Assembly (NCBI RefSeq): GCF_001311075.1
Contig: NZ_BBAD01000004.1
Location: 1-64,000 of the forward strand
Source: Secundilactobacillus similis DSM 23365 = JCM 2765
GTDB lineage: Bacteria; Bacillota; Bacilli; Lactobacillales; Lactobacillaceae
DNA: 64,000 bases
Reading direction: 5' to 3'
This document shows positions 1,225 through 51,566 of this stretch, one piece after another. Below the pieces are notes generated by a model that was not told the DNA's origin, ran no database searches, and was given only the letters and a program-made list of their open reading frames with translations. How positions within the stretch are numbered: position 1 is the first letter of the stretch; each line of letters begins with the position of its first letter. The position numbers and the translations under genes are program-made.

Positions 1225-1430
1225 ATTGAAACACCGATGACGAAGATCAGTAGTGACACGCCGACTTTTAGAGAGTTTCCGTTAGCTGAAAGGAAACAGC
1301 AGGGGGCGTCACGAAGACACTTTTGAGGTGAATAATGCAGATTATTCGTGTCCAACGTTATGGATGAGTAAATTTAAGGTGGTACCGTGCCAAGCACCCT
1401 TGTGAAAACAAGGGTGCTTTTTATTTTTTT
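1225..1430 (+). ncRNA. T-box riboswitch leader of hisS-aspS
   Basis: tRNA-sensing leader. AGTAG (about 1248) marks Stem I. The specifier region GAAGACACTTTTGAG (1313-1327) puts GAC (Asp, 1316-1318) in the usual register, with CAC (His, 1318-1320) overlapping it by one base. The T-box AAGGTGGTACCGTG is at 1376-1389. The terminator stem AAGCACCCTTGT / ACAAGGGTGCTT with a U-run is at 1392-1430. Uncharged tRNA should stabilise the antiterminator and allow transcription of hisS and aspS. Confidence 0.92.
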
Positions 1431-1464
1431 CACGGTGGAACCGATAATCAGAAAGGAAGTTACT

Positions 1465-2750: not shown

Positions 2751-2777
2751 AAACTAATTTAGAGGAGACACACAACT

Positions 2778-28700: not shown

Positions 28701-29884
28701 TAACGGGAACGTATCATGGTAACGCGATGACCTTAACCTTGATGTATGAACCGAAATCAATTGAAAAGATCACCGCGAATGTAACGCTAACAATCAATTA
28801 CGTGGATCGCCTAGGCAATTCGATTGCGCCGGCAACAATTCAAAGCGGTAACCAAGGTGCCCCGTTTAGTATCGCAGTACCAACGATTGCAGGCTATCGA
28901 CCAGTTGATCCACGGCAATCGGCGGTAACGGGGACGTATCATGGCAACGTGGTGACGCTGACGTTGATGTACGAACCCAAACCAATTGAAGAAGTCGCCT
29001 CAACCACAACGCTGACCATTAATTATGTCGATCGTTTAGGCAACCCAATCGCACCAACAACAATGCAAAATGGCGCCCAAGGTGCCCCATTTAGCATCGC
29101 AGTACCAGTAATTGCAGGTTATCGGCCAATCGATTCACAACAGTCGGCGGTAACCGGCACATACCACGGTAACGTAATGACGCTAACCTTGACGTACGAA
29201 CGCCAACCAACAGAGACAGTGCCGACAACTGTTCAGGTGACGGTAATCTATGTTGATCAAAATGGCCAGTCAATTGCGATACCAACGCATGAGAGTGGTA
29301 CTCAAGGGACGGCATTTACCATTACTGCCCCAACGATTACAGACTATCAATTGGTTGATCCGAACCAACAAACGGTGACCGGAACGTACCAGGGTAATCA
29401 AATGACGCTGACGTTGACATACCGACCGGAACAGGCAACGCCGGCCATTACACCACTAACGGATGCAGGTAGTCCAATTGTTAGCGAGACGGAAACGGAT
29501 TCCCCGATGATTGAGGTGCCGGTAAGGACCACCCCAACTGATTCAGGTAGCTCAAAGTCGAGTTCACCTGAACTAACGGTAGCTCCGGCACCAGAGAAAA
29601 CCATTAAAAATACGCCAATGGTGGGTCGAACAGCCACTCAACCGACATCAGGTGAGCAGCAGTCAGCCAAGCAACAACGCACGTTACCCGCTCAGTCAGG
29701 TACGGTGTCGACGACTAACCAGCTGATAAAATTACCGAGCGATACAAACCCAATCATCGAGACGAAGTTACCGCAAACTTCTGAACGCGCAACAACCAAG
29801 GGAACCTTTATTGGTGCTAGTTTATTAGCGATGCTGACCGGCTTTGGCTGGCAATTGAAGCTGCGGCGGAAGCGTGATCGTTAA
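25709..29884 (+). CDS. Sortase-anchored leucine-rich/MucBP adhesin
   Basis: Surface protein of 1391 residues. The signal peptide has a KxYKxGKxW-like motif (KMYKDGRRWVVAG, residues 8-20) and likely cleavage after AHA (residue 40). A Ser/Thr/Ala/Gln-rich region follows (to about 200), then a globular part with internalin-like leucine-rich segments (NLTSIDLHP, LTKLQTVTI, KPELTRVDLMYNQISDISPLA). MucBP-type modules begin with NYIDETTGQLLK and RTINYVNKSG. Four tandem ~75-residue MucBP repeats (about 28550-29430) have NYVDRLGN and VTGTYHGNVMTLTL. LPQTS precedes a hydrophobic segment and RRKRDR. ATG at 25709 has GGAGGGG upstream. Family knowledge suggests mucus or plant/biofilm adhesion. Confidence 0.9.
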   Translation: METKTHFKMYKDGRRWVVAGITTMAVGLTIGLTPMKIAHAATPAETSVGMITSTTASTQVSTLSDVQPDSGSSDDLTQATPTIPTEAQSVTVAPEQSGITVAPSDEQIANSAELPSLANDDQTQSQPVPVTISDNRAKSATNNPVTADLLRETTTAQPVAAEAQAPVEAQADDVQNVTATENLADSPSASTTSTELTNVVKATNLFNVPKVGNLQWSFKNPSLSEVIGQNAWQGADYAAGITTTAKGIDPKTGQLYLDEWMPDEIFQYFLYTNNYTDQYASFATFRSQFTKDALAQMTTFASSEAAQHVGTYQNLSSLTNYTALMSMGSLEGLQYATNLTSIDLHPSTDISQEVFGNIAQNGNLWDISALATLTKLQTVTISTFSITDISALADKPELTRVDLMYNQISDISPLATDAKLSPKSTYLRFQHLLLTPITLSTGTTTYTTPSFIVKNLQGNNVPVLAFDPKSDEYPSLFPSTADGGNLDDVTLSWSNILPDTTTNYGSFTTTWSDMSANFEGWIIQPYTLKDGIGNVTVNYQLLQADGQQLSVYPTSVLAGNVDAAFDLNTDATVAQALRVIMGDKGLDFSGVILTGSGQNSDYLANNGLAERVGLTGTYTADGQTLAILFLKRWQVQANYGVLSADGGSASAIMSDDGQPLQQTINGNLSTPIALRGVNGIVADLPGYIFAGVEVSSAGSGWTPLPADANQVPFIDGNQNVLVLYRVAQTATVNYIDETTGQLLKAVTATDDPTLIGLAGATSLYRSQDQIAVYEQQGYQLISDATQDADGQSLIVFGDTGQPVTYQVKLAHTYQTESVQTVTRTINYVNKSGQVIAAPKTQSVTFVTVIDQTTPSASGTNYYYLGAMQQAPTLTATGQPSDTNWIQGDSGMFTNVTNPTIPTYEVVETTAADQNLTQMIAKSVTIQDGNSVETVTYNFIQGQVGEIPATTILTIIPVDQTGQKLQEPSVQSGSQNTDFMVTAPEIDGYRLVDPQQAIVTGTYHGNAMTLTLMYEPKSIEKITANVTLTINYVDRLGNSIAPATIQSGNQGAPFSIAVPTIAGYRPVDPRQSAVTGTYHGNVVTLTLMYEPKPIEEVASTTTLTINYVDRLGNPIAPTTMQNGAQGAPFSIAVPVIAGYRPIDSQQSAVTGTYHGNVMTLTLTYERQPTETVPTTVQVTVIYVDQNGQSIAIPTHESGTQGTAFTITAPTITDYQLVDPNQQTVTGTYQGNQMTLTLTYRPEQATPAITPLTDAGSPIVSETETDSPMIEVPVRTTPTDSGSSKSSSPELTVAPAPEKTIKNTPMVGRTATQPTSGEQQSAKQQRTLPAQSGTVSTTNQLIKLPSDTNPIIETKLPQTSERATTKGTFIGASLLAMLTGFGWQLKLRRKRDR
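28550..29430 (+). repeat. Four tandem MucBP-coding repeats
   Basis: About 225-bp units coding for TLTINYVDRLGN...AGYRPVD...VTGTYHGN...LTLMYEP. Units 2 and 3 are closest to each other; 1 and 4 are more diverged, consistent with recent internal duplication in the middle. Confidence 0.8.
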
Positions 29885-29931
29885 ATTCATGATAATTTAA
29901 GTCACCTATAATTAGGTGGGAAATAGGTAAG

Positions 29932-29976
29932 AAAAGGCCCTCAGTTGCGCGTGTGGTTGCGACTGGGGGCCTTTTT
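29932..29976 (+). terminator. Terminator of the leucine-rich adhesin gene
   Basis: AAAAGGCCCTCAGTTGC pairs with a GACTGGGGGCCTTTT arm, ending in T-run. Confidence 0.85.
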
Positions 29977-30179
29977 AAAGTTAATTATCAAACTAAAGGT
30001 AATGATGAAGGTGCATCAACTTAACGCTTCGAATCGTGGTAGTTATTGGGACGAATTTAAAATGGATCGACTAAGCATCGTTGAGTTCATTTGAGGTGGT
30101 AACATGGTTATAATTCACCGCTGTTGTGACAGTATACTGGCACGAAACGGGTTACCCCGCCAATTAATCGCTAGCAACA

Positions 30180-30230
30180 AAAAATCGGCTTTCCCACTCT
30201 CTCAATTAGAGCTTAGGAAAACCGGTCTTC
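30180..30230 (-). terminator. Terminator of the thiSFG-hydrolase-symporter operon
   Basis: On the minus strand ACCGGTTTTCC pairs with GGAAAGCCGAT, followed by six T. It lies 30-80 bases after the symporter stop. Confidence 0.75.
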
Positions 30231-30258
30231 TGGTAGTTGAAACAAATCGAAAAGTAAC

Positions 30259-31497
30259 TTACTTATTCACAGCATGGTGCACAATCGTCTCATACACCGA
30301 ATGATCTAATTCGTCTTCGTCACTCGCAATCGCAATCGCTGTCGTGGTATCACCAACAACATTGGCAACCGTTCGAAACATACCGGAGAACCAGTCAATT
30401 CCAGCAAGTAGCGCAATGCTGGCAGTTGGCAACCCCAGCGTTGGCACGATGATGGTTAACGCAACGAGTCCACCACCGGGAACGACAACGGTGCCGAGGC
30501 AAGCTAGGACGGAAAGGGCAACGATTTGCATTAGTCCCGTAACGGAGGTACCCACGCCGTACAGTTGGGTGAGCATCACGCAAACTAGAGCGAGGTACAT
30601 TGCAAGGCCGTTACTATTAAGCGCCATGCCAAGTGGGAGCACCAGTTTATTAATGCGTTCACTGACACCGAGTCGCTCGTGCGCATCGGTCATTTCAATT
30701 GGTAGCGAAACGGCGGAGGAAGTGGTCGTCAAGGCAACCAGCATAATTCTGGAAAAACCGCGAATCAGACCAAATAACGGCACGTGGGCGTACCAACTGA
30801 TGCCCAAGAAAAGCGCAGCGAGAAAGAGACCGGTGCTGACGCCGTAAATCGCTAGGAATTTGATCAGTGGCAAGATGACACGAAGTCCGTTGTCGGCAGT
30901 AACGCCGATCATCAATGCGCCGATCCCGATTGGGGCGGCTTTCATAACCAACATGACTAAGTTAACCGTTAACTGGTTAAGTTGTTTAACGAGGTTTAGC
31001 ACACCATCAAACTGTTGGTGTTGATTGGCGTGGTTCAGGACAAGGCCGAAGAGAAGCGCAAAGACAATGACTTGAATCACATCGCCCTTGGCTAGGGCGC
31101 CAAAAATGTTATCTGGGAAAAAGTTCAAAATCGTGGTTGCCCAGTCACCGCTGGCGGTTTGGACAGCGCTTTTAGCATGAAGTTGACCAAGTTGAAGCCC
31201 ACTTCCGGGACGGAAAAGGAGGCCCATGCCAAGCCCAATTGCCGCAGCAATCACAGTTGTTACGAAGAACCAAAGGGCGGTTTTACCGCCTAAGCGGGAA
31301 AGGGCTTTATGATCGAGGCTACCGATGGCTTCAATCACGGCGCCAAAAATTAGGAATACAACGGACATCTGAATCAAGCGTAGAAAGATATCCCCAATGA
31401 TTTTTAAACTAGCGAGCTGATGGCCGCCGACGATACCAAGACCCATGCCGACGAGCATGCCTAATGTAATTTGGGTCGTTAAGTTTAAACGTTTGAT
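30259..31497 (-). CDS. Dicarboxylate/amino acid:cation symporter (SLC1/DAACS family)
   Basis: Membrane carrier of 412 residues if started at ATC 31497, or 399 from the first ATG (31458). The ATC start (ATC AAA CGT TTA AAC) is preferred because AGGAGG lies eight bases upstream at 31506-31511 and it restores the first transmembrane helix (LTTQITLGMLVGMGLGIV). Family marks: serine-rich loop TTTSSAVSLPIEM, PLGMALNSNGLAMYLAL (variant of the NMDGT/NMDGA region) and GIDWFSGMFRTVANVVGD. It should take up an anionic amino or organic acid with Na+ or H+. Last gene of the TPP-riboswitch operon, 12 bases after the M20 hydrolase. Confidence 0.85.
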   Translation of the reverse strand: MKRLNLTTQITLGMLVGMGLGIVGGHQLASLKIIGDIFLRLIQMSVVFLIFGAVIEAIGSLDHKALSRLGGKTALWFFVTTVIAAAIGLGMGLLFRPGSGLQLGQLHAKSAVQTASGDWATTILNFFPDNIFGALAKGDVIQVIVFALLFGLVLNHANQHQQFDGVLNLVKQLNQLTVNLVMLVMKAAPIGIGALMIGVTADNGLRVILPLIKFLAIYGVSTGLFLAALFLGISWYAHVPLFGLIRGFSRIMLVALTTTSSAVSLPIEMTDAHERLGVSERINKLVLPLGMALNSNGLAMYLALVCVMLTQLYGVGTSVTGLMQIVALSVLACLGTVVVPGGGLVALTIIVPTLGLPTASIALLAGIDWFSGMFRTVANVVGDTTTAIAIASDEDELDHSVYETIVHHAVNK

Positions 31498-31509
31498 AGT
31501 AACTGCCTC

Positions 31510-32736
31510 CTAGTATGCTTGAGCGTGTAAGCTCGCAGTGAGTAACTTGATGCCGGTTTGAAGGTCCGCAAATTCGGTCCGTTCTTCTGGCGCATGGCTA
31601 ATGCCGTTGATACTTGGCACAAATAACATCGTGGTGGGAACAAACTGACTCATGATCATACTATCGTGACCCGCACCAGAGGCGAGTTGCATGCTGGTTA
31701 ACCCAAGCTGATCAGCCAGCTTTTGATTGAGCTGGCAAAGGTCCTCAGCTAATTGAACGGGCCGGTCATGCACCCAACGATCAACAGTGATGGTTAAGGT
31801 ATGATCTGGGCGATTAGTGGTTAAATGAGTGAGCTGCATTTCAAACTGGTCCAAAATCCCATCAATGGTATGACGACAGTCGATCGTAAAGGCGACCTGC
31901 CCGGGGATGACGTTGGCAGTGTTCGGTGAAACGTCAAACTGGCCGACCGTAAACGTAAGCGTTGGACTCAGCGTTTTCGCAATCTGGGCAAGTTCATGAA
32001 TCAGATTAACGGCCACCTGAAGAGCGTCGTGTCGCTGATCCATTGGGGTCGTTCCTGCGTGATTAGCGGTACCAGACACCGTTACGGTAAATCGGCGTTG
32101 ACCAACGATGCCAGTCACTAACCCAATCTGAGCTTGATGTTGGACGAGACGCGGTCCCTGTTCAATGTGCAGTTCAGTAAAACTAGCCGGTAGTGCTGGT
32201 CGTTCGTGGCGGATGCCAGGCAACGTCAGCAATTGTTGAACTGCGGTTTGTCGCGCATCATCAAAGTTGACGCCCGATGGATCCGTAATCGCGGTCGTTT
32301 CAGCTAAGCCGGTATAGTGCTTGGAACCACTGAAAGTTGCCGGAAATCGGCTGCCTTCTTCTTCGCTAAAGGAGATTAACCGAAGTGGTCGTTTGGGTTG
32401 CCCGTGAGTTTGTTGCAGGGTGGCAATCGCGTGAAGACCACCCAAAACACCGTAGAGACCATCGTAACGACCACCATTTGCCACTGTATCCATGTGAGAA
32501 CCAGTCGCGATTGCAGGTGCATTCGTTTGACCCGGTAAGTCTAAGTAGACGGTCCCGTAATCGTCAACCCTTGCCTGCATCCCAATCGATTGGCCAAATT
32601 GAATCAACGCTTGTTGCGCTGCGACCCAGTTGGGGGTGTAGACCAGCCGGTTTTGCCCCGGTGTCGCGTCGGATAGGGCGTTGATTTGATCCATCTGATC
32701 GAGAAACGTCTGCCAATTAACCGTTAAAGGCGTCAT
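31510..32736 (-). CDS. M20-family AllC-like amidohydrolase in the thiamin operon
   Basis: 408 residues, paralogue of the 5581-6789 enzyme. Motifs: AIATGSHMDTV, GGRYDGLYG, EEEGSRFPATFSGSKHYTG, ELHIEQGP, GTANHAGTTPM and GAGHDSMI. These carry the dinuclear metal ligands of allantoate amidohydrolase/N-carbamoyl-amino-acid hydrolases. ATG lies five bases after the thiG stop and has no clear ribosome site, so it is probably coupled to thiG translation. Its place between thiG and an anion symporter under a TPP riboswitch suggests a substrate linked to thiamin supply; the substrate itself is unknown. Confidence 0.85.
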   Translation of the reverse strand: MTPLTVNWQTFLDQMDQINALSDATPGQNRLVYTPNWVAAQQALIQFGQSIGMQARVDDYGTVYLDLPGQTNAPAIATGSHMDTVANGGRYDGLYGVLGGLHAIATLQQTHGQPKRPLRLISFSEEEGSRFPATFSGSKHYTGLAETTAITDPSGVNFDDARQTAVQQLLTLPGIRHERPALPASFTELHIEQGPRLVQHQAQIGLVTGIVGQRRFTVTVSGTANHAGTTPMDQRHDALQVAVNLIHELAQIAKTLSPTLTFTVGQFDVSPNTANVIPGQVAFTIDCRHTIDGILDQFEMQLTHLTTNRPDHTLTITVDRWVHDRPVQLAEDLCQLNQKLADQLGLTSMQLASGAGHDSMIMSQFVPTTMLFVPSINGISHAPEERTEFADLQTGIKLLTASLHAQAY

Positions 32737-32741
32737 CGTAA

Positions 32742-33518
32742 CTAGGACTTCTTACTGAGGCCGGTCAGAGGTGAGGACGCAACGGCACCGTGTTCAATTA
32801 CGCGGCCGGGTTCAGCTAAAAAGGCTTTTCGGCCGGCTTCAACGGCCAGCTTAAAGGCTTCAGCCATCAGTGGAATGTTACCGGCAGTTGCCATCGACGT
32901 ATTGGCCATAATGGCATCGGCGCCCATTTCCATGGCTTCAGCAGCTTGGCTTGGGCGACCGATTCCGGCATCGATGATGATTGGTACGTCGATTTCATCG
33001 ATTAAAATCTGAATAAGGTCCTTGGTTGCTAGACCTTTGTTAGTCCCGATTGGGGCAGCTAACGGCATAACTGTTGCGGCCCCAGCATCGACTAAGCGCT
33101 TTGCAACGTTTAAATCTGGCAGAACGTAAGGCATCACGATAAAGCCTTCTTTAGCGAGAACTTCGGTTGCCTTAACCGTTTCATCGTTATCGGGCATCAG
33201 GTATTTTTTATCCGGTACCACTTCCAATTTGATAAAGTTGCTGCCACTGAGTTCGCGGGCTAACCGGGCGGTCCGGATGGCTTCTTCAGCGTTGGTCGAA
33301 CCAGACGTGTTGGGCAAGATCGTAATGCCTTCAGGAATGTAGTTGAGGATGTTTTCTTCGGCCGTGTTGGTCCGACGAAGCGCCATGGTAATGATTTGCG
33401 CGTTGGCGTTTTTGATTGCTGAATCAATGAGTTCGTACGAATATTTACCAGATCCCAGAATAAAGCGTGAGGTAAAGGTGTGACCCGCAATGGTAAGTAC
33501 ATCAGTTTCAGTTGTCAT
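32742..33518 (-). CDS. thiG: Thiazole synthase
   Basis: Forms the thiazole phosphate of thiamin from deoxyxylulose 5-phosphate, ThiS-thiocarboxylate and dehydroglycine. 258 residues, TIM barrel: [14 protein letters not shown], the Schiff-base lysine region [51 protein letters not shown] and VNTSMATA-like [10 protein letters not shown]. Third gene of the operon, 11 bases after thiF. The enzyme that supplies dehydroglycine (ThiH or ThiO) is not in the window. Confidence 0.95.
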
Positions 33519-33529
33519 GTGAATGACTC

Positions 33530-34177
33530 CTAGATAGTTGAGTGACCTAAAATCAATCGGGTAATCATGTTAGCTTCGTGACCGGCGGCAATCATAACCC
33601 GTGGCGCCATTAAGCCTTCAGCACCGGTTGATGTGTTATCGCCAGCGATGTAGACGTTTGGACGAACCTGTTTGGTAGTGATGCTGTTCGAACTATGAAC
33701 CCCAGCCATCCCAGTTGCCATCACGATTGGCTTATGTGGGAAGAACTCACTGGCCGCATCCAGCAACATCGCTTTAGCGGCGGGGTTATCAAATGCCTCG
33801 CAGATGATGTCGCAATCGGCAAATAAATCGGCCACGTTGTCGTGAGTAATCTCAACGATGGCGGTATCAATCGTCACGAAAGGGTTAAATTCCTGCAGGT
33901 TTTGCTTGAGTGCCGTCACTTTATCCATGCCAACTTGACTTAACTTGTACTGTTGGCGATTGAGGTTACTGAGTTCGACGGCATCAAAATCAATTAACGT
34001 GAGGTGGCCGACGCCGATTCGAGCAAGCGCAATGGCAATGTTAGAACCTAGACCGCCAGCGCCAGCGATAGTCACGTGTGCCGCGCTAAGCTTTTCGGTT
34101 GAGTCGGCCACGTTGCGGGCCTTCATACCGGTATAAACGTCGTTAATGTCGAGTCCCTGAAGTTGTGGTTGTGTCAT
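33530..34177 (-). CDS. thiF: ThiS adenylyltransferase ThiF (short clostridial-type)
   Basis: E1-like enzyme that adenylates the C-terminus of ThiS before sulfur transfer. 215 residues; ATP-binding [36 protein letters not shown] with the catalytic Arg, and the Asp in [11 protein letters not shown]. It lacks the C-terminal zinc CxxC pairs of MoeB and is of the short type usually found with thiH. ATG at 34177 has AGGAGG nine bases upstream; an upstream in-frame GTG/ATG would overlap thiS. 13 bases separate it from thiS. Confidence 0.9.
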
Positions 34178-34190
34178 GTAATGGGGCCTC

Positions 34191-34391
34191 CTAACGACCG
34201 CCGCCGACAAACGAGATCAATTCTAGTTTGTCGTCCGGTTGGATCTGAGTGGTTTCAAATTGTGGTCGGTGTAAAATCTCACCGTTTAATTCCACCACGA
34301 TGTTGTCAACTGGTGCTTGTCGACCAGTTAAGAATGCGAAGACGGTTTGACCAGCTGCTTGTTGCGCTGGTTCGCCATTGACCATAACCAT
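34191..34391 (-). CDS. thiS: Sulfur carrier protein ThiS
   Basis: Ubiquitin-like sulfur carrier of 66 residues (MVMVNGEPAQQAAGQTVFAF; VELNGEILHR; DKLELISFVGGG). It carries the thiocarboxylate used by ThiG. Unusually, the translated end is GGGR: one arginine follows the diglycine needed for adenylation. First gene of the TPP-controlled operon; the GGGGC ribosome site lies inside the preceding terminator stem, so translation may also be affected. Confidence 0.9.
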   Translation of the reverse strand: MVMVNGEPAQQAAGQTVFAFLTGRQAPVDNIVVELNGEILHRPQFETTQIQPDDKLELISFVGGGR

Positions 34392-34394
34392 AAA

Positions 34395-34440
34395 AAAAGC
34401 CCCTTTCTTTAGTAGTTTGGCTACCGAGAAAGGGGTGCGG
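34395..34440 (-). terminator. Terminator-like hairpin just before thiS
   Basis: On the minus strand GCACCCCTTTCTC pairs with GAAAGGGGC and runs into TTTTTTT four bases before the thiS ATG. Second stem of the TPP leader; it may act as a terminator or sequester the ribosome site. Confidence 0.6.
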
Positions 34441-34477
34441 TCAACTTGATGGGTGCGTCAGTCACACCCTCCGTCAA

Positions 34478-34628
34478 CTAAAAAAGCCCTTCCAAGTTGA
34501 CGGAGGAAGGACTTCGGGCGGGTATAAGTGCCGCCATCAAATTTAAGTCAGTCTTCCTTCGGTAGTACAAACTACATCAGGTTCGATGGGTATCATCTCA
34601 GCCGTTACCGGCACCCCAGACGAACTAT
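34478..34628 (-). ncRNA. TPP riboswitch leader of thiSFG operon
   Basis: On the minus strand, GGGGTGCC, CTGAGATGATACCC and GAACCTGATGTAGTT (about 34620-34555) form the conserved THI-box aptamer. Downstream, AGTCCTTCC / GGAAGGGCT with TTTTTT (34523-34491) is an intrinsic terminator. Its loop base run CCGTCAAC (34513-34506) can instead pair with GTTGACGG (34488-34481), giving an antiterminator. TPP should shut off the operon. Confidence 0.93.
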
Positions 34629-34672
34629 TCCATTTTTTGAGAATTGTGAGTCGCGTTGGACTCAATACGTTA

Positions 34673-34701
34673 TTTATAAGCAATTTCTTGGCGATTGTCA
34701 A
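34673..34701 (-). promoter_or_regulatory. Promoter of the thiSFG operon
   Basis: On the minus strand TTGACA (34701-34696) and TATAAA (34678-34673) with a 17-base spacer, located about 45 bases before the TPP aptamer. Confidence 0.8.
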
Positions 34702-34946
34702 GCAGTCCGAACAATTCGGTACAAAATAATTGGTTCGTTAAGTAATTTAGGCTGATTACCGATTGGATGCGCAAACATCAGGAAAAACTAACCGAAAAAT
34801 AAAAAAATCAGTCTAGAATCACCGGTAGTTCAAGCGAAATGATAATTGTGCTTGAGTAATGGTACTGTACAACCCGATTTGAATCAGGTAAACTAACCGT
34901 GATTTAAGCTAAAATTGGCTTAGACCAGTTTAAGGAGGCGAATAAG

Positions 34947-35579
34947 ATGGCGATTAAACGGCCATTGTACTTAGTGACGGACCGGTTGGACTTGACCAAT
35001 GACGCATTTTTAGCGCGAATCAAAGCGGCGTGTCAAGGTGGTGTTGATCTTGTTCAGTTACGCGAAAAGACGCTGTCAAGTCGTGATTATTACGAGTTGG
35101 CACAGCAGGTGAAGACCATTACCGATCAGTTCAAGGTGCCGCTATTGATCGATGATCGACTTGATATTGCATTAGCGGTGCAGGCAGCCGGGGTGCATTT
35201 AGGTCAAAAAGATCTGCCTGTCGCAGTTGCTCGGCAGTTGTTGGGGCCGGATGTTATTATCGGGGCAACGACCAAGACGTTGGCGCAGGCTCAAACAGCG
35301 GTAAGCGAAGGGGCAGATTACTTGGGGGTTGGCGCAATTTTCCCAACTACGACCCACGTTGAGACCGTTCAAACCAGCGTTGAGACGTTGACGGCCATTA
35401 AACAGGCGGTGCCGATTCCGGTATACGCGATTGGTGGGTTGAATGCAACGAACGTTGACGCGGTCAAACCGGCGGCGGTCGATGGTGTCGCAGTGGTTTC
35501 CGCTATTATGAAGACGGATGACCCATTCAGTGCAACACAGCAGTTACGGCAACGGGTGATTGACGTTACCAAAAAATAA
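34947..35579 (+). CDS. thiE: Thiamin-phosphate synthase
   Basis: Joins HMP-pyrophosphate and thiazole phosphate to thiamin phosphate. 210 residues, TIM barrel: LYLVTDR, DLVQLREKTLSSRDYYE, LLIDDRLDIALAVQAAGVHLGQKDLP, GATTKT, ADYLGVGAIFPTTTH, YAIGGLN and GVAVVSAIM. AAGGAGGCG precedes the ATG. Divergent from the thiSFG operon. A second TPP riboswitch lies directly after its stop, so thiE may have its own promoter. Confidence 0.95.
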   Translation: MAIKRPLYLVTDRLDLTNDAFLARIKAACQGGVDLVQLREKTLSSRDYYELAQQVKTITDQFKVPLLIDDRLDIALAVQAAGVHLGQKDLPVAVARQLLGPDVIIGATTKTLAQAQTAVSEGADYLGVGAIFPTTTHVETVQTSVETLTAIKQAVPIPVYAIGGLNATNVDAVKPAAVDGVAVVSAIMKTDDPFSATQQLRQRVIDVTKK

Positions 35580-35595
35580 ACATCACAATTAAAAA

Positions 35596-35730
35596 AAGCT
35601 AGGGGTGCTTGAAATGAGCTGAGATGGCAATGCCAGACCCTTTGAACCTGATAGAGTTAGGACTCGCGGAGGAAAGCTGATCACACGCACGTTGACTAAC
35701 TCTTGAAGACCCTTCAGGAGCTTTTTTTAT
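35596..35730 (+). ncRNA. TPP riboswitch leader of the pyrimidine-salvage operon
   Basis: AGGGGTGCTTGAAATGAGCTGAGAT (about 35600-35625, in two halves), GACCCTTTGAACCTGATAGAGTTAG (35636-35660) and GCGGAGGAAAGC complete the THI-box aptamer. A terminator, CTCTTGAAG / CTTCAGGAG plus TTTTTTT, is at 35700-35729. TPP binding should terminate transcription before the ylmB-like gene. Confidence 0.93.
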
Positions 35731-35756
35731 TGGTCAAACGAAAGGAAGCGTGTTGG

Positions 35757-37040
35757 ATGGTAGCAACGCAAACGGTAAAAGATACGCTTATGGCGGCAAT
35801 TGATGCCCAACAAGCGGAGTTGGTCGCACAGTTAAAAACGTTAGTGGCGTTTAAAACGGTTTCCCCACCAGCGAGAAATACCACACCGTTACAGACGCAA
35901 TTAGCTCAGCAGTTAACTGAATTAGGATTTCAGGTCAAGCAACAGGCATTTCAGACAACGGATCAATTGGTGTCAGCAACGTTGCCGGGAAACAATGACC
36001 AGCAAGGGCATAGTTTATTACTCAATGGCCACGTGGATGTGGCAACGGTGACGGATGCGGATCGGTGGCAAACAGATCCGTTTGAGCTGGTGCAACAAGG
36101 TGATCGATTAGTGGGGCGTGGCTCAAGTGACATGAAGGGTGCCATGGCGTGCTACTTATATTTGTTCAAGCTACTTAAACAGCTGGAGATACCATTGGCC
36201 GGCGATTTGAAATTTCAGTCGGTCGTGGGTGAAGAGGCCGGCGAAGCCGGAACGAAGACGCTATTAGAACAGGGCGAACGAGCCGATTTTGCGATTGTGG
36301 GCGATACCAGTAACCTGAAGTTTCAGGGTCAGGGTGGTGTGATCACTGGTTGGATCACGTTGCGCAGTCCACACACCTACCATGATGGCAATCGGGTCAA
36401 CATGCTTCGAGCCGGTGGTGGGTTGAAAGCAGCCAGTATGGTTGAGAAAATGCCTGTTGTAATCACGGCGCTTCAAAAGCTGGAACACTATTGGGCGGTC
36501 ACGAAACAGTATCCGGGGTTTCCTGCTGGCACGGATACGATCAACCCAGCGTACATCGAAGGTGGCATTCACCCAGCCTTTGTGGCCAATGAATGTCGGT
36601 TGTGGATTACCGTCCACTACTATCCAAACGAAACGGCAACGCAAATCACAAAAGAAATTGAAACGCAGGTGATTGCAGCGACACAAGCGGATCCGTGGTT
36701 AAAGGAGTGTCCACCCATTTTTAGCTGGGGTGGCGATTCGATGCTGGTGGATAAGGGAGAAGTTTTCCCACCGTTGACCATTGACGAAACGTCGGCTGCA
36801 ATTCAACAATTACGGCAAGCACACGAGGCTGAACTCGGACAGCAACCCGAGACCGAAATGTCGACGTCAGTAACAGATGGGGGCTGGTTCGAGGCGTATG
36901 ACATCCCGGCGGTCACTTACGGGCCAGGCGAGATGTTGATGGCACATAGTGATAATGAATCAGTGTCGTTAAACCAGTTAATTGCATATACCAAAATCAT
37001 TGCGAACTTTGTTTTAGATTGGTGTCAAATTGTCGACTAA
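35757..37040 (+). CDS. ylmB: ArgE/DapE-family deformylase, YlmB-like (formylaminopyrimidine salvage)
   Basis: M20 peptidase-family metal hydrolase of 427 residues. Motifs: LLNGHVDVATV (metal His), GRGSSDMKGAMACYL (bridging Asp), VVGEEAGEAGTK (catalytic Glu), GDTSNLKFQGQGG and a C-terminal MAHSDNESV. In Bacillus, YlmB removes the formyl group from N-formyl-aminomethyl-aminopyrimidine, a thiamin breakdown product. Placement between a TPP riboswitch and a YkoE-like carrier supports that role. ATG 35757 has AAAGGAAG eight bases upstream; an earlier in-frame start lies inside the terminator. Confidence 0.85.
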   Translation: MVATQTVKDTLMAAIDAQQAELVAQLKTLVAFKTVSPPARNTTPLQTQLAQQLTELGFQVKQQAFQTTDQLVSATLPGNNDQQGHSLLLNGHVDVATVTDADRWQTDPFELVQQGDRLVGRGSSDMKGAMACYLYLFKLLKQLEIPLAGDLKFQSVVGEEAGEAGTKTLLEQGERADFAIVGDTSNLKFQGQGGVITGWITLRSPHTYHDGNRVNMLRAGGGLKAASMVEKMPVVITALQKLEHYWAVTKQYPGFPAGTDTINPAYIEGGIHPAFVANECRLWITVHYYPNETATQITKEIETQVIAATQADPWLKECPPIFSWGGDSMLVDKGEVFPPLTIDETSAAIQQLRQAHEAELGQQPETEMSTSVTDGGWFEAYDIPAVTYGPGEMLMAHSDNESVSLNQLIAYTKIIANFVLDWCQIVD

Positions 37041-37066
37041 TCAACTTACGAAAGGGTGTTTTCCAA

Positions 37067-37618
37067 GTGAAAAAACAATTCCATCTTCAAGATATTATCC
37101 TGATTGCGATGATCGCCATTATTTTTGGGGCCATTTTTGTCGGTACGGATTACCTGTACAACGTTTTGTTCGTGGCGGTTGGTCCGTTTGCAAACGAAAT
37201 TCTTTTTGGCCTTTGGATCATGGCGGGACCACTGGCGATTTACTTGACGCGGATTCCGGGTTCAGCCATCGTTGGGGAAGTGCTTGGCGCGGCCGCCGAG
37301 GTCATTTTTGGGGGTACTTTTGGTATTTCAGCATTACTATCAGGTATCGTTCAAGGCGTCGGGAGTGAATTAGGATTTACGGTTTACCGGTATCGACGCT
37401 GGGACTGGGTCAGTTTGTTAACGTCTTCGGTGACCACGACGATTGTTGCGTTTGGCTATGAACTATTCCGGTTAGGGTACGTGCACTATTCACTTGGCAT
37501 GATTGCGGCGTTATTTGCCGTTCGATTGGTGTCGGTGATCTTCTTCGGTACCATTATGGTTCGGAGCATCTTCGGATTACTCGACCGGGCGCATGCGTTA
37601 CGACATGTTCACTCGTAA
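37067..37618 (+). CDS. ykoE: ECF transporter S component, YkoE-like (HMP/thiamin precursor)
   Basis: Membrane substrate-binding subunit of 183 residues with about five or six helices (IILIAMIAIIFGAIFVGTDYLYN; GLWIMAGPLAIYLTRIPGSA; EVLGAAAEVIFGG). YkoE proteins bind pyrimidine precursors of thiamin and use an energy-coupling module encoded elsewhere, as no ECF ATPase is nearby. GTG start with AAAGGG upstream, 26 bases after the deformylase. Second gene of the TPP-controlled salvage operon. Confidence 0.87.
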   Translation: MKKQFHLQDIILIAMIAIIFGAIFVGTDYLYNVLFVAVGPFANEILFGLWIMAGPLAIYLTRIPGSAIVGEVLGAAAEVIFGGTFGISALLSGIVQGVGSELGFTVYRYRRWDWVSLLTSSVTTTIVAFGYELFRLGYVHYSLGMIAALFAVRLVSVIFFGTIMVRSIFGLLDRAHALRHVHS

Positions 37619-37635
37619 TGCTGGTTAATTAGTTA

Positions 37636-37776
37636 TTGTATACAACAAATGACCTTAAAAATCATTGATTGGCGTTGAACTAATCGATAACGTTTAAGGT
37701 CATTTTGTTTGTGTCGAAAATGCCGAATCGAGCGGTTGGTTACGGATGACACTGAATTAATAACTGCTGTATACAA
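37636..37776. promoter_or_regulatory. Terminator region flanked by two GTATAC palindromes
   Basis: TTGTATACAA (37636-37645) and CTGTATACAAG (37767-37777) bracket a hairpin in which AATGACCTTAAA (37648 on) pairs with TTTAAGGTCATTT (to about 37706). The hairpin probably ends transcription from both the ykoE and the minus-strand oxidoreductase sides; the palindromes look like operator half-sites but have no assigned regulator. Confidence 0.45.
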
Positions 37777-38927: not shown

Positions 38928-39895
38928 TTGGCTGACACGACACAAACCGAAAAAGAATTTATTTTAGAGAACCCAGAACAAGAAGTTCAGATTTTAGGGG
39001 CTCAAGATCAGTTTATTGCCATCTTGGAAGAAGGCTTAAGCGTGACGATTCGTCCGTTTGGCAATTCGATTAAAGTTGCAGGCGAACCGTTCCAAGTTCA
39101 AAAAGCGATGGCGATTCTCAAAAAGATGACGCAACTGGTTCAACAAGGCATTCAGTTGAACAGTACTGACGTGGTCAGTGCGATGAAGATGGCTGATCGA
39201 GGGACGTTGGACTATTTCTTGGATCTATACACTGAGATTTTGATCAAAGACGCTAAGGGGCGAGCTGTTCGGGTTAAGAACTATGGTCAACGCCAGTACG
39301 TCAATGCAATCAAGCATAATGACGTTACCTTCGGGGTTGGGCCTGCCGGGACTGGTAAAACCTATCTGCCGTGGTAATGGCGATTGCTTCCTTGAAGCGC
39401 GGCGACGTTGAAAAAATTATTTTGACGCGGCCAGCCGTTGAAGCCGGTGAAAGTCTCGGGTTCTTACCTGGTGACTTGAAAGATAAGGTTGATCCTTACC
39501 TGCGGCCAATTTACGATGCGTTATATGCGATTTTAGGCGCTGAGCACACGAACCGATTAATGGAGCGTGGTGTGATTGAAATTGCACCGTTGGCTTACAT
39601 GCGTGGGCGGACGCTGGATGGCGCTTTCGTCATCTTGGATGAGGCCCAAAACACCACTAACGCCCAAATGAAGATGTTCCTGACACGGTTAGGCTTTGGT
39701 TCTAAGATGATCGTTAACGGTGACGTGACTCAAATCGACTTGCCAAGCAATAGTCGTAGCGGCTTGGTTCAAGCTATGGGCATTTTGAAAGATGTTAATC
39801 ACATTGAGTTTGTTCAGTTTACGGCTGACGATGTGGTTCGGCACCCAGTGGTTGCGGCCATCATTAACGCCTACGAAGGCACTGAAAAACACTAA
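38928..39895 (+). CDS. phoH: PhoH-like ATPase (frame break near 39368)
   Basis: YbeZ/PhoH family ATPase associated with RNA metabolism and ribosome maturation alongside YbeY. It has an N-terminal KH-like part and Walker [29 protein letters not shown] and the Walker [11 protein letters not shown] follow. The frame breaks at 39368: GG is needed where a single G is read (restoring [15 protein letters not shown]); corrected length is 322 residues. TTG start with AAAGGAG upstream. First gene of phoH-ybeY-dgkA-era-recO. Confidence 0.9.
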
Positions 39896-44768: not shown

Positions 44769-47700
44769 ATGGTTGGTAAAAATAACCGGCAGAAGATAGT
44801 GCAATCAAATTTAAAAAAAGCACTATAAAGCATATAAGATTGGAAAAACATGGGTTTTCGCCAGTTTAGCGTTTGGTGTAAGCCTCTTTTTGGGGTCCAG
44901 CGTGACGACTTACGCGTCAACTGCGACAACTGATGCAACGAGTACCACTGACACCAATAGTAGTATTGAGTCAGCGACGAACGAACAGGTTCTTCGTAGT
45001 ACGGCATCGAGTGATACGGCAACTGATCAGAGTGATGCTGATAGCGAAGCAACGCAGACAGCTGGTTCAGCAGCTACAGTTACCACAACGGCAACAGATG
45101 ATGCTTCAACAGCTAGTGATTCAACCAAAGCGACAACGACTGATTCAACGGACAGCAATCAGACCAGTGATGACGCAACGCCTAATACTGATACTGCGAC
45201 TAAATCGGCAACATCGGCAACGGCTGATTCAACGCAAATAACCACTGCCACGGCTACTGATAGCGATGCGACAACGGCTGATTCAACAGCAACTTCAACT
45301 GTGAACAAAGCAACGACTGACAGTACTAAGGATTCAGCAACGTCGACAACAGTTGCTGCAGCAGATTCAACGACTGATACAAATGTGGCAAGCAATAATT
45401 CAGGCACGAGTACCACAACTGATATGGGGGCCAATGCTGCGACTGATCAACAAACTGCTCAAACGGTAACCAAAGCGCAATCTGTCGCTACGGCTGATCT
45501 GACAGCTGATCAAACTGCTGAAATTGCTAAGCTAAAAGCGCAACTGACACAGCAGTTGGTTGATCCAACGGATGCTGAACTTGCCACTGCTAAAACAATC
45601 GCAGCTGAGTTATATCAGCTTAGTGGGCAACCACAGAAATTGACGGCGGTTGGTGATGCAACGACTACGAGCATCACGATTGATGCTTCTGAAACGACGT
45701 TGGGTTATAAATCCGGTGCAACGGATCCGTTGACAATTACAGTTCAAATGATCGTTAATCACGACGGTGACGCCGTTTCAATTAATATTCCAACGGAGCT
45801 CGTCTCGTTAGGTGACCTCAGTTATGATACTTGGGCTAGCAGCGCAGGTGTTACAATCGCTAAGACTGGTAACACAGATGGTTCAACTACGGTAACGGAT
45901 ACGTTTAGTCATGCAGGCAATTACACACAAACATTTACCGTTAAAATCAACGGTAATTGGCAGAGCCAAACGATGATTGCAGATCAAATGGGCAAAACGG
46001 TGACGCGTGATGTGACAGCGGCAGTTGATGGAACGGTTATTGCAACCAAAACGCTTACTCAGACGACTAACCCCACGTTAACGGTTACATCACTGACCCG
46101 GATTCAGCCAGATCAAACGATTATTCCAGCAGTAACCACGGACACGGATTACGTTTACGTCTTAAAGCTGAATAATTCCAATGGTGTTATTGATGATCAG
46201 GGGACTGGTCGTGTTAATGCGAACGTTAATTTAGGTGGTACGACGGTTACGATTCCTGTTCCAACTGGATTTACGTTAGATAGTGATTTGACTACACAAC
46301 TCAACAGTTTTGGTGATAAGGATCAAACGACCATCACCCAGACTGGAACGGGTAGCGACATTATTATTACGGTACCAGCGGGTTCTGGTAACGGCGGGTC
46401 CGATAATACGCCTTACTATCTAGTTGGTAGTTACGATGCAGCCAGTACACCTGTTGGTGAAGCGAATCCAGCTGTCGGTGAAGTTACTGCTACTCAGCAA
46501 GTTGGCGACTATGTCATTTCGGCAACTGGCCCAACTTGGACTGAAAATATGCTGGGAACGGAAGGCAATTCAGTAAACCCTACGGCAACCATTACTGGTA
46601 GAGGAAACAGCTCAGGGAGTACGACCCAATTAGCGTTGGGGGTGGATAAAGCTGATTCACCAGCGATTATCAACAAAGTAATTTTTGACGTCAATTCGGC
46701 AACGGATTTAACAGACGCTAAATTTACACTTTCGATTCCTGATGGTGTGACAGCGACCGGTGTTCAGCTACCAACGGAGAAAATTTCGATGGTAGATGGC
46801 ATTTATTTGGATGGTACTGAAAATTACGGTTACGTGTTGACGTATGCTGATGGTAGTCAATCAACGGGGACTGCAGCAGCTGGGACAATCATTAATGGGA
46901 CAGCTGATAAGGCCATTCGGACAATTGAGTTGATACCAAACTTTCTTGCGACTGGCGCAAATACCGGGAATGGTGTCACTCAAACTGGTATTAGTTCCGC
47001 AGTGGCAACGGATTCAATTGACATTTTAGGGACCCTTGCAACAACGTATGATGATGGTAGCGCAATTCAAGTTGGCGATAAGCTGACATTTGGCCAAGAA
47101 CTTAGCGTTGGCAACGCAGCGGACGGCACTGAGATGGTGTTAGATGATAGCACGAACGATCAGACTGTGGTATCGGCACTTGGCCGGGTTAGAATGTGGT
47201 ACTACCAATATGATCGAAATCCTGGGGGTACTGGGGTCGTCGATATTTCTGCGAATGGGTTAACGCAACATAACGTTGATCACGTTTATGAACCAGTACT
47301 TTATTTCGTTGTTCCTAACCAAACGATTATTACATCAGTCGTGGTGCCGCAAGACGAGTTGGATGCTGGTGTAAAAGTTTCATACTATAAAACGGATACG
47401 GACCAAACTGGTGTCAAATTAGACTTCACAGGAACCGGTTTGTCGATGGCAACGGACCAAACTGGCCGGTACGGTGTTTGGTTACAAAATGCCGACGATG
47501 CACCATCTGGCACATATAGTGTTGCCATGTATGTGACGTCGCCAACAACGGTACTAGCCAACCAAACTAAGGTGACCGATGCAACGTTAACCGATGGTGA
47601 TACCAATGCCGTTTTAGTGGACGGTGCACCTGCTGGGTATACAATTCTAAGCGCCCAAATGACCGCCGCTGTTTCCTTCGCTTCCGGTAACCAAGACATT

Positions 47701-50700
47701 TCGCCAACCAAGACGGGGAGTGCAGACACCCGAGGCGATTCAGAACTTGATTTTTACACCAACTTGTTAAATACAACGAATAACATTGCCGACAACGTTT
47801 CGGTTGCAATCAACCTACCATCTGTTGGCGATGACCAAGGCTCAACCTTCACCTACACACTAACTGGCCCGGTAACGGTGCCAACGAACACAACGGTTGC
47901 TGGCGGCACTGGTCAACCAATTGACGCGACGGTGTTGTACGGTACAACTCGGTATAACGGCCAAGGTACTACGGCCATCGATACAACCGGTTATGTCACC
48001 GCAGATCAGGTTACGGATTGGTCAACGATCCAGTCAGTGATCGTTGAAGCGGGTAACCTTGAAGTGAACAGTACTTCTGGTCGAATCAAAATGACCGGGA
48101 CAACGTCAGACTTCATTGCGCAAAGTGGCAAGGTTGGGTATTTGCAAACCAACTTCTACGCCAACGATGGCGCACCGGTGATTGCTAACCAAACGGCTAG
48201 TCTTACCTTGACCAGTACCTCAACAGTAGCGGCCCAATACCACTACACTGACCGGAATGGCAACGACCACACGATTGCGCTGCCTGATTTGACCCAAACG
48301 TTAACGGACAATAAAGACACGTTGACCGTACCAACGTTAACTGACGATGATCAAGCATTGATTCCAGACGGGTATCACGTGGTAACCGATAGCACCAGCG
48401 CACCGGTTGTAACGGTTGTTAACTCAACCCACGGTGACTACGGGACTAACGAACCAAACGGCACAGCAACGGTCGGCGATGTGTCGCAGTACTACTTTGA
48501 CGGCGATACGTTGCAATTCGAACTTGCAGAAAATCAATATACGGCAAACGTCACTTACGTGGATGATGATGCAGCTGAGGCTGTTGTAGGTCAAGATGAA
48601 ACGACTGCTGACTTTGCTGGCGAAACCGGCACGTACCAAGTTGATGCAACTAAATACCCAACGACTTACGACCTCGCAACTAATCAAGCAACCAGCGTGG
48701 CCTACACGTTGACGGCAGATGATTCGGATGCGATTACGATTCACCTCGTTCATAAGCATACGGTGGCGGATTCGAAGACGACCAATTACACGGTCAACTA
48801 CGTGGGCTTACCAGCTGATAAAGCGGTGGCTACGGCTTCCGGTACGGTAGATTGGACGGCGGATCAAGATGAAGTGACCCAAGTGATCACTTACACGCCA
48901 TCGAAGACCACGGTAACGGTTAACGTCCCAACGGTGGCTGGTTACACAGCTGATGCTGGCAACCAAGTATTTGCATTTGACACCACCACGACTGCCCCAA
49001 CTGATCAAAGTCGGACGGTGACGTATACACCAACTGCTCAAGATTTGGCTGTGACCTACGTGATGATGCTACTCAGCAACCATTAACTGATTTAGGGACG
49101 ACATTGACTGGTAAGACGGACGAAACTGGGACCTATACGGTGGTTGTGCCAACCGGGTATGTCTTGAGTAATGATCAACCAGCGACAGTTGCGTACACGT
49201 TTGAACCCGGAAATGCAGACGATATTACCGTTCACTTAACTCACGGCGTCACTCACAGTACGGCTACCACTACGCGGACAATCAACTACTACCTTGACGG
49301 GACCACAACGCCAGTTCATGACGCCACGACTCAGACGGTTAACTGGAACGTTTCAACTGACAATGTGACGGGTGATCAAGTGATGACGGCCCAAACGAGT
49401 TATGCTACAGTAGCTGCACCAAGCGTAACGGGCTACACAGCAACGCCAGCCAGTGTCGCTGCTAGTTATCCAGATGCAATTCATGGTTCGGTTGATCAGT
49501 TGGCAGATAGTACCACAACGGTTTACTACCAAGCTGATCCACAGACCATCAACGTGGCTTACGTGGATGACGTAACGAAACAATCACTGACGGACTTGGC
49601 AGATACGCTACAAGGTAAGACTGATGAAACTGGGACTTATACGGTTGTTGTACCAACCGGGTATGAGCTTAGTAATGGTCAAACTGCTGAAGTGGACTAT
49701 ACGTTTGAACCCGGTGATACAGATGGTATTACCGTTCACTTAACCCATGGCGTGACCCACAGTACGGCTACCACCACGCGAACAATCAACTACTACCTTG
49801 ACGGCACAACGACACCAGTCCATGACGCCACGACTCAAACGGTTAACTGGAATGTCTCAACTGACGATGTCACCGGTGATCAAGTGATGACGCCACAAAC
49901 GAGTTACGCCGCAGTAACTGCACCAAGTGTAACGGGCTACACGGCAACGCCAGCTAGCATCGATGCTAACTATCCAGGTGCTGCTCAGGCTCAGTTGATC
50001 AATTAGCCGATAGTACGGCAACGATTTACTACCAAGCTGATCCACAGACCATTGGTGTAACGTACGTTGATGATGTGACGAAACAATCGCTCACAGATTT
50101 GGCAGATACGCTGCAAGGTAAGACCGATGAAACTGGAACTTATGCAGTGGTCGTACCAACCGGTTATGAACTTAGTGATGGTCAAACTGCTACCGTTGAC
50201 TACACGTTTGAACCTGGTGACGCGGATGGGATTACCGTTCACTTAACTCACGGGATCACTCACAGCACGGCTACCACCACGCGGACGATCAACTACTACC
50301 TTGATGGAACCACAACGCCGGTTCATGATGCGACGACTCAAACGGTTAACTGGAATGTGTCAACCGATGATGTGACTGGTAATCAAGTGATGACACCACA
50401 AACGAGTTACGCTGAAGTCACTGCGCCAAGCGTGGCAGGCTACACGGCAACCCCAACCAGTGTCACGTCTGATTATCCGGGTGCGCTTCAAGGGTCGACT
50501 GATCAGTTGAAGGATAGCACGGCAACAATCTACTACCAAGCTGACCCACAGGACTTGACTGTGAGCTATGTAGATGATGTGACGAAACAACCACTCACCG
50601 ACTTAGCGGATACGCTGCAAGGTAAGACCGATGAAACCGGGACGTACACCGTTGTGGTGCCGGCCGGTTATCAACTGAGTGACGGCCAGTCTGCTACGGT

Positions 50701-51566
50701 TGCGTACACCTTTAAACCTGGGGATGCGGATGCCATTACCGTGCATTTGACCCATGAACTGACTCACGACACGGTTACCACGACCCGGACGATCAACTAC
50801 TGGGTTGCCGGCACGACCACGCCGGTTCACGAGGCAACCACTCAGACGATCACTTGGGCGGTTACAACGGATCAAGTGACCCACCAACAAGTTGCCACGG
50901 CGCAACAACCATACGGTGAACAAACTGCACCAACGGTAACGGGTTACACACCATTGACGGCGCAGGTTGCGGCTGATTATCCAGCACCAGTGGCAACGCC
51001 AGCGGATAGCGCAACAACCATTTACTACCAAGCAAATGCAGTTGTTGATCCGGGTAACGGTGGCGATAACGGCAATGGTGGGACTGACAATCCGGGAACG
51101 ACGCCAGAAACGACACCTGAAACTACACCGGAGACCACTCCTGAAACCACGCCGGAGACAACCACGACGACCACGCCGGAAAATACGGTGGCAACAACAC
51201 CGGAAACTGGAACAACCTCAGAGACTGGTAAGACCGGGACAACGCCAGCGGTAACGACCGATGAGTCGAAGGCAAGTCACGCAGTTACAGCAACCGAACC
51301 ACAAGTCACTGGTCAGTCAGCAGCAACAGCGACTGAGCCGACTACGACGACGGTTTCTGCGAACGCCACTGCTACATCGGAAAGTGAATCAACCGCCAGT
51401 GCGACAACCACGGCTCGCAACGCAACAGGCTTCAAACAAGGCCGCTGCTAAGACCTTGCCACAAACTAATGAACAAACGCCTAGTGCGTGGGCTGCGTTG
51501 GGACTGGGTATCTTGGGTGCTTTGGGTGCCTTGGGTGTTGGTCGCCGGAAACACGATGAGGATTAG
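44769..51566 (+). CDS. Giant sortase-anchored repetitive adhesin (four frame breaks)
   Basis: Surface protein of about 2265 residues after correction. KxYKxGKxW signal (HYKAYKIGKTWVFASLAFG), a Thr/Ser/Ala/Asp-rich low-complexity stretch (to about residue 240), a long beta-rich region with DUF11-like segments, then at least four 168-residue repeats (49057-51030) with YVDDVTKQSLTDLADTLQGK, TVHLTHGVTHSTATTTRTIN and TIYYQADPQ. A Thr/Glu/Pro wall-spanning region and LPQTNEQ plus hydrophobic tail and RRKHDED end it. Breaks: extra A in 44813-44819; lost G at 49060; lost G at 49988-49989; extra base near 51419. The frame is open across thousands of bases otherwise, so errors are likely, but phase variation cannot be excluded. 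Confidence 0.87.
48556..51030 (+). repeat. Tandem 504-bp (168-aa) repeats in the giant adhesin
   Basis: The tyrosine codon of the YVDD motif recurs at 48556, 49057, 49560, 50063 and 50567. Spacings are 501, 503, 503 and 504; the two 503 values become 504 once the missing bases at 49060 and 49988 are restored. The 49560 and 50063 units are the most alike; the 48556 unit is diverged. Confidence 0.9.

Follow-up and report, generated by a model that had tools for sequence, protein, structure and literature searches.

How does a lactic acid bacterium supply its thiazole synthase, ThiG, with dehydroglycine (2-iminoacetate) if it has neither of the enzymes that normally make this compound? The question is raised by Secundilactobacillus similis DSM 23365 = JCM 2765, where a stretch of 64,000 nucleotides (positions 1 to 64,000 of contig NZ_BBAD01000004.1, assembly GCF_001311075.1; hereafter the window) carries an operon in which a thiamin pyrophosphate (TPP) riboswitch is followed by thiS, thiF, thiG and the genes of an amidohydrolase and a symporter. 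Excerpts of two papers give glycine oxidase, ThiO, and the radical S-adenosylmethionine (SAM) enzyme ThiH as the bacterial sources of dehydroglycine for ThiG (PMC4403557, PMC9046217), ThiO forming it from glycine with oxygen and ThiH from tyrosine (PMC9046217). In 89 gut genomes, 62 of them from Bifidobacterium, the rest of the pathway was reported with neither enzyme, and the excerpted text speaks of a 'yet unknown enzyme/route' to iminoglycine (PMC6593275). We propose that the operon of S. similis probably makes the thiazole of thiamin with a hydrolytic source of dehydroglycine that is fed by ureides and replaces ThiO and ThiH.

The operon lies on the reverse strand and is headed by the riboswitch aptamer at 34537..34628 (RF00059, 65.7 bits, gathering score 54.3). 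It consists of thiS, encoding the sulfur carrier (34191..34391; TIGR01683, 60.5 bits over 37.45), thiF, encoding the ThiS adenylyltransferase (33530..34177; PRK08644, 272 bits over a cut-off of 159), thiG, whose product requires dehydroglycine (32742..33518; PF05690, 331 bits), a gene for an M20 amidase of the hydantoinase/carbamoylase family (31510..32736; TIGR01879, 339.2 bits over 204), here called the hydrolase, and a gene for an SLC1-type (DAACS) symporter of uncertain start (30259..31497; PF00375, 334 bits over 27.9). The gaps between the five genes are 13, 11, 5 and 12 bases, exactly as given in a preliminary description of the locus, provided that the symporter begins at 31497, as the last value assumes. 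The codon at 31497 is ATC, preceded by AGGAGG, and the earliest ATG is at 31458; the symporters of relatives have ATG, GTG or TTG near the place of the ATC. The ATC may be a rare start codon, the true start may be at 31458, or the sequence may be in error. The preliminary description had also claimed that there is no internal terminator, and in a scan of 29850..37700 with loops of 3-8 bases no terminator-like site was indeed found in the junctions of the five genes; the whole interval held nine such sites vs 10.2 expected, which is not above chance.

We surveyed 397 Lactobacillaceae genomes, of which 45, in 10 genera, matched ThiG strongly (E 7e-78 or better), and searched these 45 together with 35 genomes without ThiG (80 genomes) for ThiO (TIGR02352, cut-off 250.8 bits) and ThiH (TIGR02351, cut-off 380 bits). 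The lack of both enzymes, noticed earlier for the window, extended to the whole S. similis genome. The best match to the ThiO model reached 97.7 bits vs the required 250.8 and was a flavin adenine dinucleotide (FAD) oxidoreductase split by a frameshift, located on contig 99, which carries none of the six TPP riboswitches of the genome; the ThiH model gave no match at E <= 0.001. No ThiH over the cut-off was detected in any of the 80 genomes. Four proteins, in G081, G108, G209 and G050, gave strong matches to the ThiH model below the threshold, at about 280 bits; the one tested as a possible hidden ThiH (L160 of G081, 1399..2817) was rejected, as it is HydG (885 bits). HydG in G081 and the similar-scoring proteins in G108, G209 and G050 suggest that [FeFe] hydrogenase maturation takes place in some Lactobacillaceae.

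ThiO over the cut-off was present in a single genome of the 80, G113 (271 bits). Its gene order is thiE-thiS-thiF-thiG-ThiO, after which come what read as ThiD and TenA, and it has no hydrolase. Many of the 80 genomes, that of the window among them, contain a DAO-like protein scoring 97-156 bits with the ThiO model, so that one may ask whether ureide breakdown merely gives glycine or nitrogen and another oxidase, for example this protein, makes dehydroglycine. We regard this as very improbable. The DAO-like protein is spread irrespective of ThiG, for which reason it was dismissed as a hidden ThiO; four ThiG genomes (G202, G073, G266 and G136) contain nothing that matches the ThiO model at E <= 0.001, and a supply of glycine would need no TPP control.

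We read the gene neighbourhood of each of the 45 thiG genes, that of the window included; a few of the operon genes are frameshifted. It was found that the hydrolase accompanies thiG in 44 of the 45, directly behind it in 37 and past an intervening transporter of the major facilitator superfamily (MFS) in seven, and that the sole ThiG genome without the hydrolase, G113, has ThiO in that position. The TPP riboswitch likewise heads the operon in 44 of the 45 (the window and 43 of the 44 others), the only miss being L151, where the thiS region is damaged. The association noticed in one genome thus recurs in other lactobacilli, and because the arrangement is seen again in many species it is not due to chance. 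In four operons (L124, L135, L144 and L147) of genus g19, a group that includes Weissella, TPP riboswitches stand in tandem before thiS.

Genomes without ThiG mostly lack the hydrolase: there was no match at E <= 0.001 in 33 of the 35, and the other two (G053, G199) have paralogs, 40-42% identical, that are situated in allantoin clusters. Among 69 hydrolase loci in named species, a set that overlaps with the 397 genomes and is not a second independent sample, all 35 loci from Lactobacillaceae have thiG directly upstream, and the remaining 34 are at most 37% identical and have no thiG in the locus. Plasmid sequences gave 507 records, all below 60% identity to the hydrolase and below 42% among the 20 matches listed. 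Of 299 genomes of other Bacilli, 210 have ThiG; at the thiG loci of the 30 that scored best, a ThiO-like match was nearby in 24 and the hydrolase in none (1.5 kb flanks).

The closest solved sequence to the hydrolase is Escherichia coli AllC (1z2l, 288 bits); carbamoylase-family amidases reach up to 201 bits and plant UAH 169-171 bits. In the predicted structure (predicted local distance difference test, pLDDT, 92) the top Foldseek matches were 4pxd, 1z2l and 2imo (E. coli AllC). His81, Asp92, Glu127, His190 and His381, which we take to be the ligands of a dinuclear metal centre, and Glu126, presumably also a functional residue, are invariant in 21 aligned sequences. In a tree of 48 rows, 33 lie in a clade (100/98) that holds E. 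coli AllC, the hydrolases of allantoin clusters and the thi hydrolases, i.e. those of operons with SLC1 or no transporter, those of MFS operons, and one from G614, a genome of another family in the same order. The first of these types is sister to hydrolases of clusters with a PucR-type regulator (96/90), and the hydrolase of G614 forms a group with E. coli AllC (100/99). In the approximately unbiased (AU) test, uniting all thi hydrolases in one clade was rejected (p-AU 8e-35) and uniting the SLC1 and MFS types was not (p-AU 0.067); thiSFG is therefore linked to hydrolases of two or more separate lineages, the tree being unable to separate repeated gain from loss. A second AllC-clade hydrolase is encoded in the window at 5581..6789. 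It is 43% identical to the first, has no allantoin genes beside it and is sister to the hydrolases of PucR-type allantoin clusters, and its close relatives lie in allantoin clusters.

The hydrolase could also play the same role with another substrate, cleaving ureidoglycolate, as plant UAH does, or another N-acyl hydroxyglycine directly to hydroxyglycine, which would then yield dehydroglycine by dehydration. AtUAH appears among the fold matches at rank 12. We consider this variant unlikely, since the sequence is closer to AllC than to UAH, the tree, built without plant UAH, places the hydrolase with AllC, and its TPP-controlled partner, described below, is an allantoinase, the product of which is allantoate.

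In G614 a TPP riboswitch (55.0 bits, cut-off 54.3) is followed in one direction by genes for a 2-hydroxyacid dehydrogenase, an AllC-clade hydrolase and an SLC1 transporter and by thiS, thiF and thiG. The dehydrogenase (L190, 3893..4852) scored 203 bits with a phosphoglycerate dehydrogenase model and 194 bits with that of glyoxylate reductase, both below the cut-off; perhaps it removes glyoxylate, and a glyoxylate reductase would be in keeping with the formation of that compound as a by-product. The same genome has a second thiSFG, with no hydrolase in the 16 kb that were read. The array of G614 bears on the possibility that the last two genes stand in the operon by coincidence, as passengers retained by its inheritance. 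The operons of Lactobacillaceae may indeed share a single origin, with which the unrejected clade of SLC1 and MFS types is compatible; gene orders and transporters differ between operons, however, a separate hydrolase lineage occurs in another family, and the allantoinase operon under TPP control is unlinked, so that mere inheritance seems extremely unlikely.

A link of the operon to allantoin and allantoate, new relative to the preliminary description, is given by the AllC clade and by allantoinase and permease genes under TPP control. An allantoinase over the curated cut-off is present in 25 of the 397 genomes, 17 with ThiG and eight without. In 15 of the 17 (12 of 12 in one set and 3 of 3 in another) a TPP riboswitch immediately precedes an operon that encodes allantoinase and a permease, a result reproduced with a riboswitch model built in this analysis; the other two (G081 and G108) have catabolic clusters without a riboswitch. 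No hydrolase gene is among the genes listed for the TPP-controlled allantoinase operon. The permease matched PF02133 (cytosine, purine, thiamine, allantoin) in all 11 cases tested, the other four being judged by eye. In the genomes without ThiG, none of the eight allantoinase operons had a TPP riboswitch, either in 1.5 kb flanks, which missed some operon leaders, or when 13-14 kb around each of the eight loci were rescanned with our own model, which recovered L194 as a positive control. Catabolic allantoin clusters in ThiG genomes likewise had a TPP riboswitch in none of four cases, and none was detected at loci L176-L185 with the same model; at L186 one precedes an operon that resembles thiM-thiD-thiE. 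The catabolic clusters are of types with a PucR-type regulator and a class V aminotransferase, or with cupin, Ldh_2 and CoA-ligase-like proteins.

The allantoinase operon is also distributed in a particular way. It was found behind a TPP riboswitch in 12 of the 13 hydrolase genomes in which no transporter is adjacent vs 3 of the 31 with one (Fisher p = 2.6e-7, a value that overstates the independent evidence because the genomes are related and only two changes are independent), the exception among the 13 being G268. A thiG-thiF tree without G268 shows just two changes of transporter, and in almost every random pairing they went together with the allantoinase operon (mean 1.9 of 2).

Beside the hydrolase, the 45 operons have an SLC1 transporter in 24 cases, an MFS transporter in seven and none in 13, the remaining operon being the one with ThiO. 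In the preliminary description the hydrolase and the symporter were suggested to replace ThiH or ThiO together, by way of an imported precursor. The proposal is supported: neither of the observations that the description named as refuting was made, since no ThiO over the cut-off and no ThiH turned up elsewhere in the genome and the hydrolase is conserved beside thiG in 44 of the 45 ThiG genomes, with ThiO in its place in the one exception. The symporter is the part more easily replaced; SLC1 as an obligate component was ruled out, as it is exchanged for an MFS protein or missing. A transporter was expected behind the hydrolase in G268, in which no allantoinase was detected; there the two parts of the hydrolase gene lie on different contigs and no transporter follows, and the expectation failed. 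The nearest solved sequence to the symporter of the window is the aspartate transporter 9bgz (235 bits). A Gly is aligned to an Asp of aspartate transporters (394 in GltPh numbering) that we take to bind the amino group of the substrate, and the Arg three residues further is retained; such a site would suit an anion without an amino group. A motif of the GIDWF..FR type is present in 21 of 25 SLC1 open reading frames examined and was missed in L127 and L152 (both on the other strand, outside the operon), in L144 (truncated reading frame) and in L123. For the one MFS protein tested, the nearest solved relative was the D-galactonate transporter 6e9n (58 bits).

It is likely, in our judgement, that these genes form a third route to the substrate of ThiG, one without oxygen, radicals or flavin, in which purine-derived ureides (allantoin, allantoate) are converted to dehydroglycine by way of the AllC-clade hydrolase and in which import and allantoinase are controlled by TPP. 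Allantoate, or a similar ureide, would enter through the SLC1 symporter, in other genomes through the MFS anion transporter, or would be formed inside the cell from allantoin by the TPP-controlled permease and allantoinase. The hydrolase would then take one carbamoyl group off allantoate and give (S)-ureidoglycine, an unstable gem-diamine that, on chemical grounds, could shed urea to leave dehydroglycine. Alternatively, ureidoglycine may decay to glyoxylate and ammonia, which are able to re-form dehydroglycine. ThiG would combine the dehydroglycine with 1-deoxy-D-xylulose 5-phosphate (DXP) and the thiocarboxylate of ThiS. As far as an excerpt of PMC4016543 describes it, allantoate amidohydrolase forms ureidoglycine, which is thermally unstable and may end as glyoxylate, ammonia and urea; plant UAH is stated in an excerpt of PMC3793230 to form hydroxyglycine. 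Hydroxyglycine equals dehydroglycine plus water, so that by either path the substrate of ThiG is within reach of this hydrolase family without redox chemistry. The logic of the pathway is strongly supported; the identity of the substrate, the specificity of transport, the step from ureidoglycine to dehydroglycine and any hand-over to ThiG are what we infer from it.

Several points weigh against the proposed ureide route. The hydrolase falls below the AllC equivalog cut-offs, 359.1 vs 597.75 bits (TIGR03176) and 397.6 vs 532 bits (NF006768), as do the paralog at 5581..6789 and the hydrolase of G614, and it is therefore filed as AllC-clade rather than AllC. The fold does not discriminate, since the fit to a Burkholderia amidase is as good as that to AllC (TM 0.92 and 0.91), and we found no enzyme assay of the predicted activity. 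Thirteen operons have no transporter beside the hydrolase (the rest of these genomes was not searched for transporters), and G268 has thiG and the hydrolase with neither an adjacent transporter nor a detectable allantoinase. The trade-off between transporter and allantoinase amounts to two independent contrasts, too few for a phylogenetic test. The one permease tested against NCBIfam scored below all cut-offs, that of the allantoin permease included, so the substrate of the permease is assumed. In the S. similis genome itself there is no allantoinase over the cut-off, and allantoate would have to be imported. Finally, dehydroglycine is hydrolysed to glyoxylate in water, according to an excerpt of PMC9046217, and a free intermediate would for that reason be wasteful.

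The proposed source can be set beside the systems that it resembles. It shares clade, fold and metal ligands with the AllC of ureide catabolism, but stands in a TPP-controlled thiamin operon and lies below the AllC equivalog cut-offs. The catabolic allantoin clusters of lactobacilli also combine allantoinase, permease and an AllC-clade hydrolase, with no TPP riboswitch found in front of them. The proposed product is the same dehydroglycine that ThiH of E. coli makes, whereas ThiH, a radical SAM tyrosine lyase, is an unrelated protein that requires SAM and an iron-sulfur cluster. A hydrolase of the AllC kind needs neither FAD nor oxygen. The ThiO route of Bacillus subtilis likewise supplies dehydroglycine to ThiG, and in G113 its gene follows thiG where the hydrolase gene would otherwise stand; ThiO is, however, an unrelated protein, and it oxidises glycine with oxygen, as stated in an excerpt of PMC9046217.

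In the open-access literature, covered as titles and the beginnings of abstracts, nothing was found that connects thiamin synthesis with allantoin, allantoate or ureidoglycine, which is not proof that no such report exists. If confirmed by experiment, the route would be an undescribed third source of dehydroglycine in many lactic acid bacteria, and it would suit fermenting bacteria that use little oxygen. Thiazole synthesis in these organisms would then depend on allantoin and allantoate, ureides that are nitrogen compounds common in plants. Genome-based calls of a thiazole requirement in lactobacilli may need correction, as may the assignment of these genes to allantoate degradation. The hydrolase is also a concrete third candidate for the source of dehydroglycine and bears on the iminoglycine gap noted in PMC6593275; an enzyme of this sort may provide the step that is missing in Bifidobacterium.

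The thiamin genes next to the operon are on the forward strand. The divergent neighbour is thiE (34947..35579; TIGR00693, 216 bits over 145), whose product couples the thiazole and pyrimidine moieties. A second TPP riboswitch (35591..35691; RF00059, 68.7 bits) heads a neighbouring operon with an M20 deacylase of the ArgE/DapE type (35703..37040; PRK08596, 594 bits over 412), probably YlmB-like and presumably acting in pyrimidine salvage, and a transporter component (37019..37618; PF09819, 129 bits) that we take to be YkoE-like. This operon (35703..37618) is a likely case of the salvage of formylaminopyrimidine by YlmB, which, as we understand it, also places an M20 hydrolase and a transporter under the control of a TPP riboswitch, but belongs to another M20 subfamily and serves the pyrimidine half of thiamin. 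By analogy, the AllC-clade hydrolase might deacylate an imported breakdown product of thiazole or thiamin, in the way that YlmB acts on the pyrimidine half. Its TPP control and the YlmB-like deacylase in the adjoining TPP operon agree with such a role; the exchange for ThiO, the absence of ThiO and ThiH and the TPP-controlled allantoinase would all be left unexplained, which makes salvage very unlikely.

ThiS is expected to have glycines as its final residues. In the window it ends in GGGR, one residue past the glycines, and still scores above the family cut-off of TIGR01683; in 43 relatives the end is GGGR in 14 and GGG in 29. The extra Arg would need to be removed. The hydrolase was considered as the enzyme that trims it and was ruled out for this task, because most genomes without the Arg carry the hydrolase as well.

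The S. similis genome (G000) comprises 3.45 Mb in 176 contigs, with 93% completeness and 6.9% contamination. In the window, genes that read from their translations as aspS-like, phoH-like and adhesin-like are split into adjacent frames (2876..4557, 38928..39895 and 44890..51451), and together with the split DAO-like gene on contig 99 they indicate that the assembly probably contains indel errors. ThiC is absent from the genome, so the pyrimidine is presumably salvaged and the thiazole made. Besides the two TPP riboswitches of the window, the other four of the genome precede genes that, read from their translations, we take to encode a CytX-like permease, a YkoE-like transporter, thiM-thiD and tenA.

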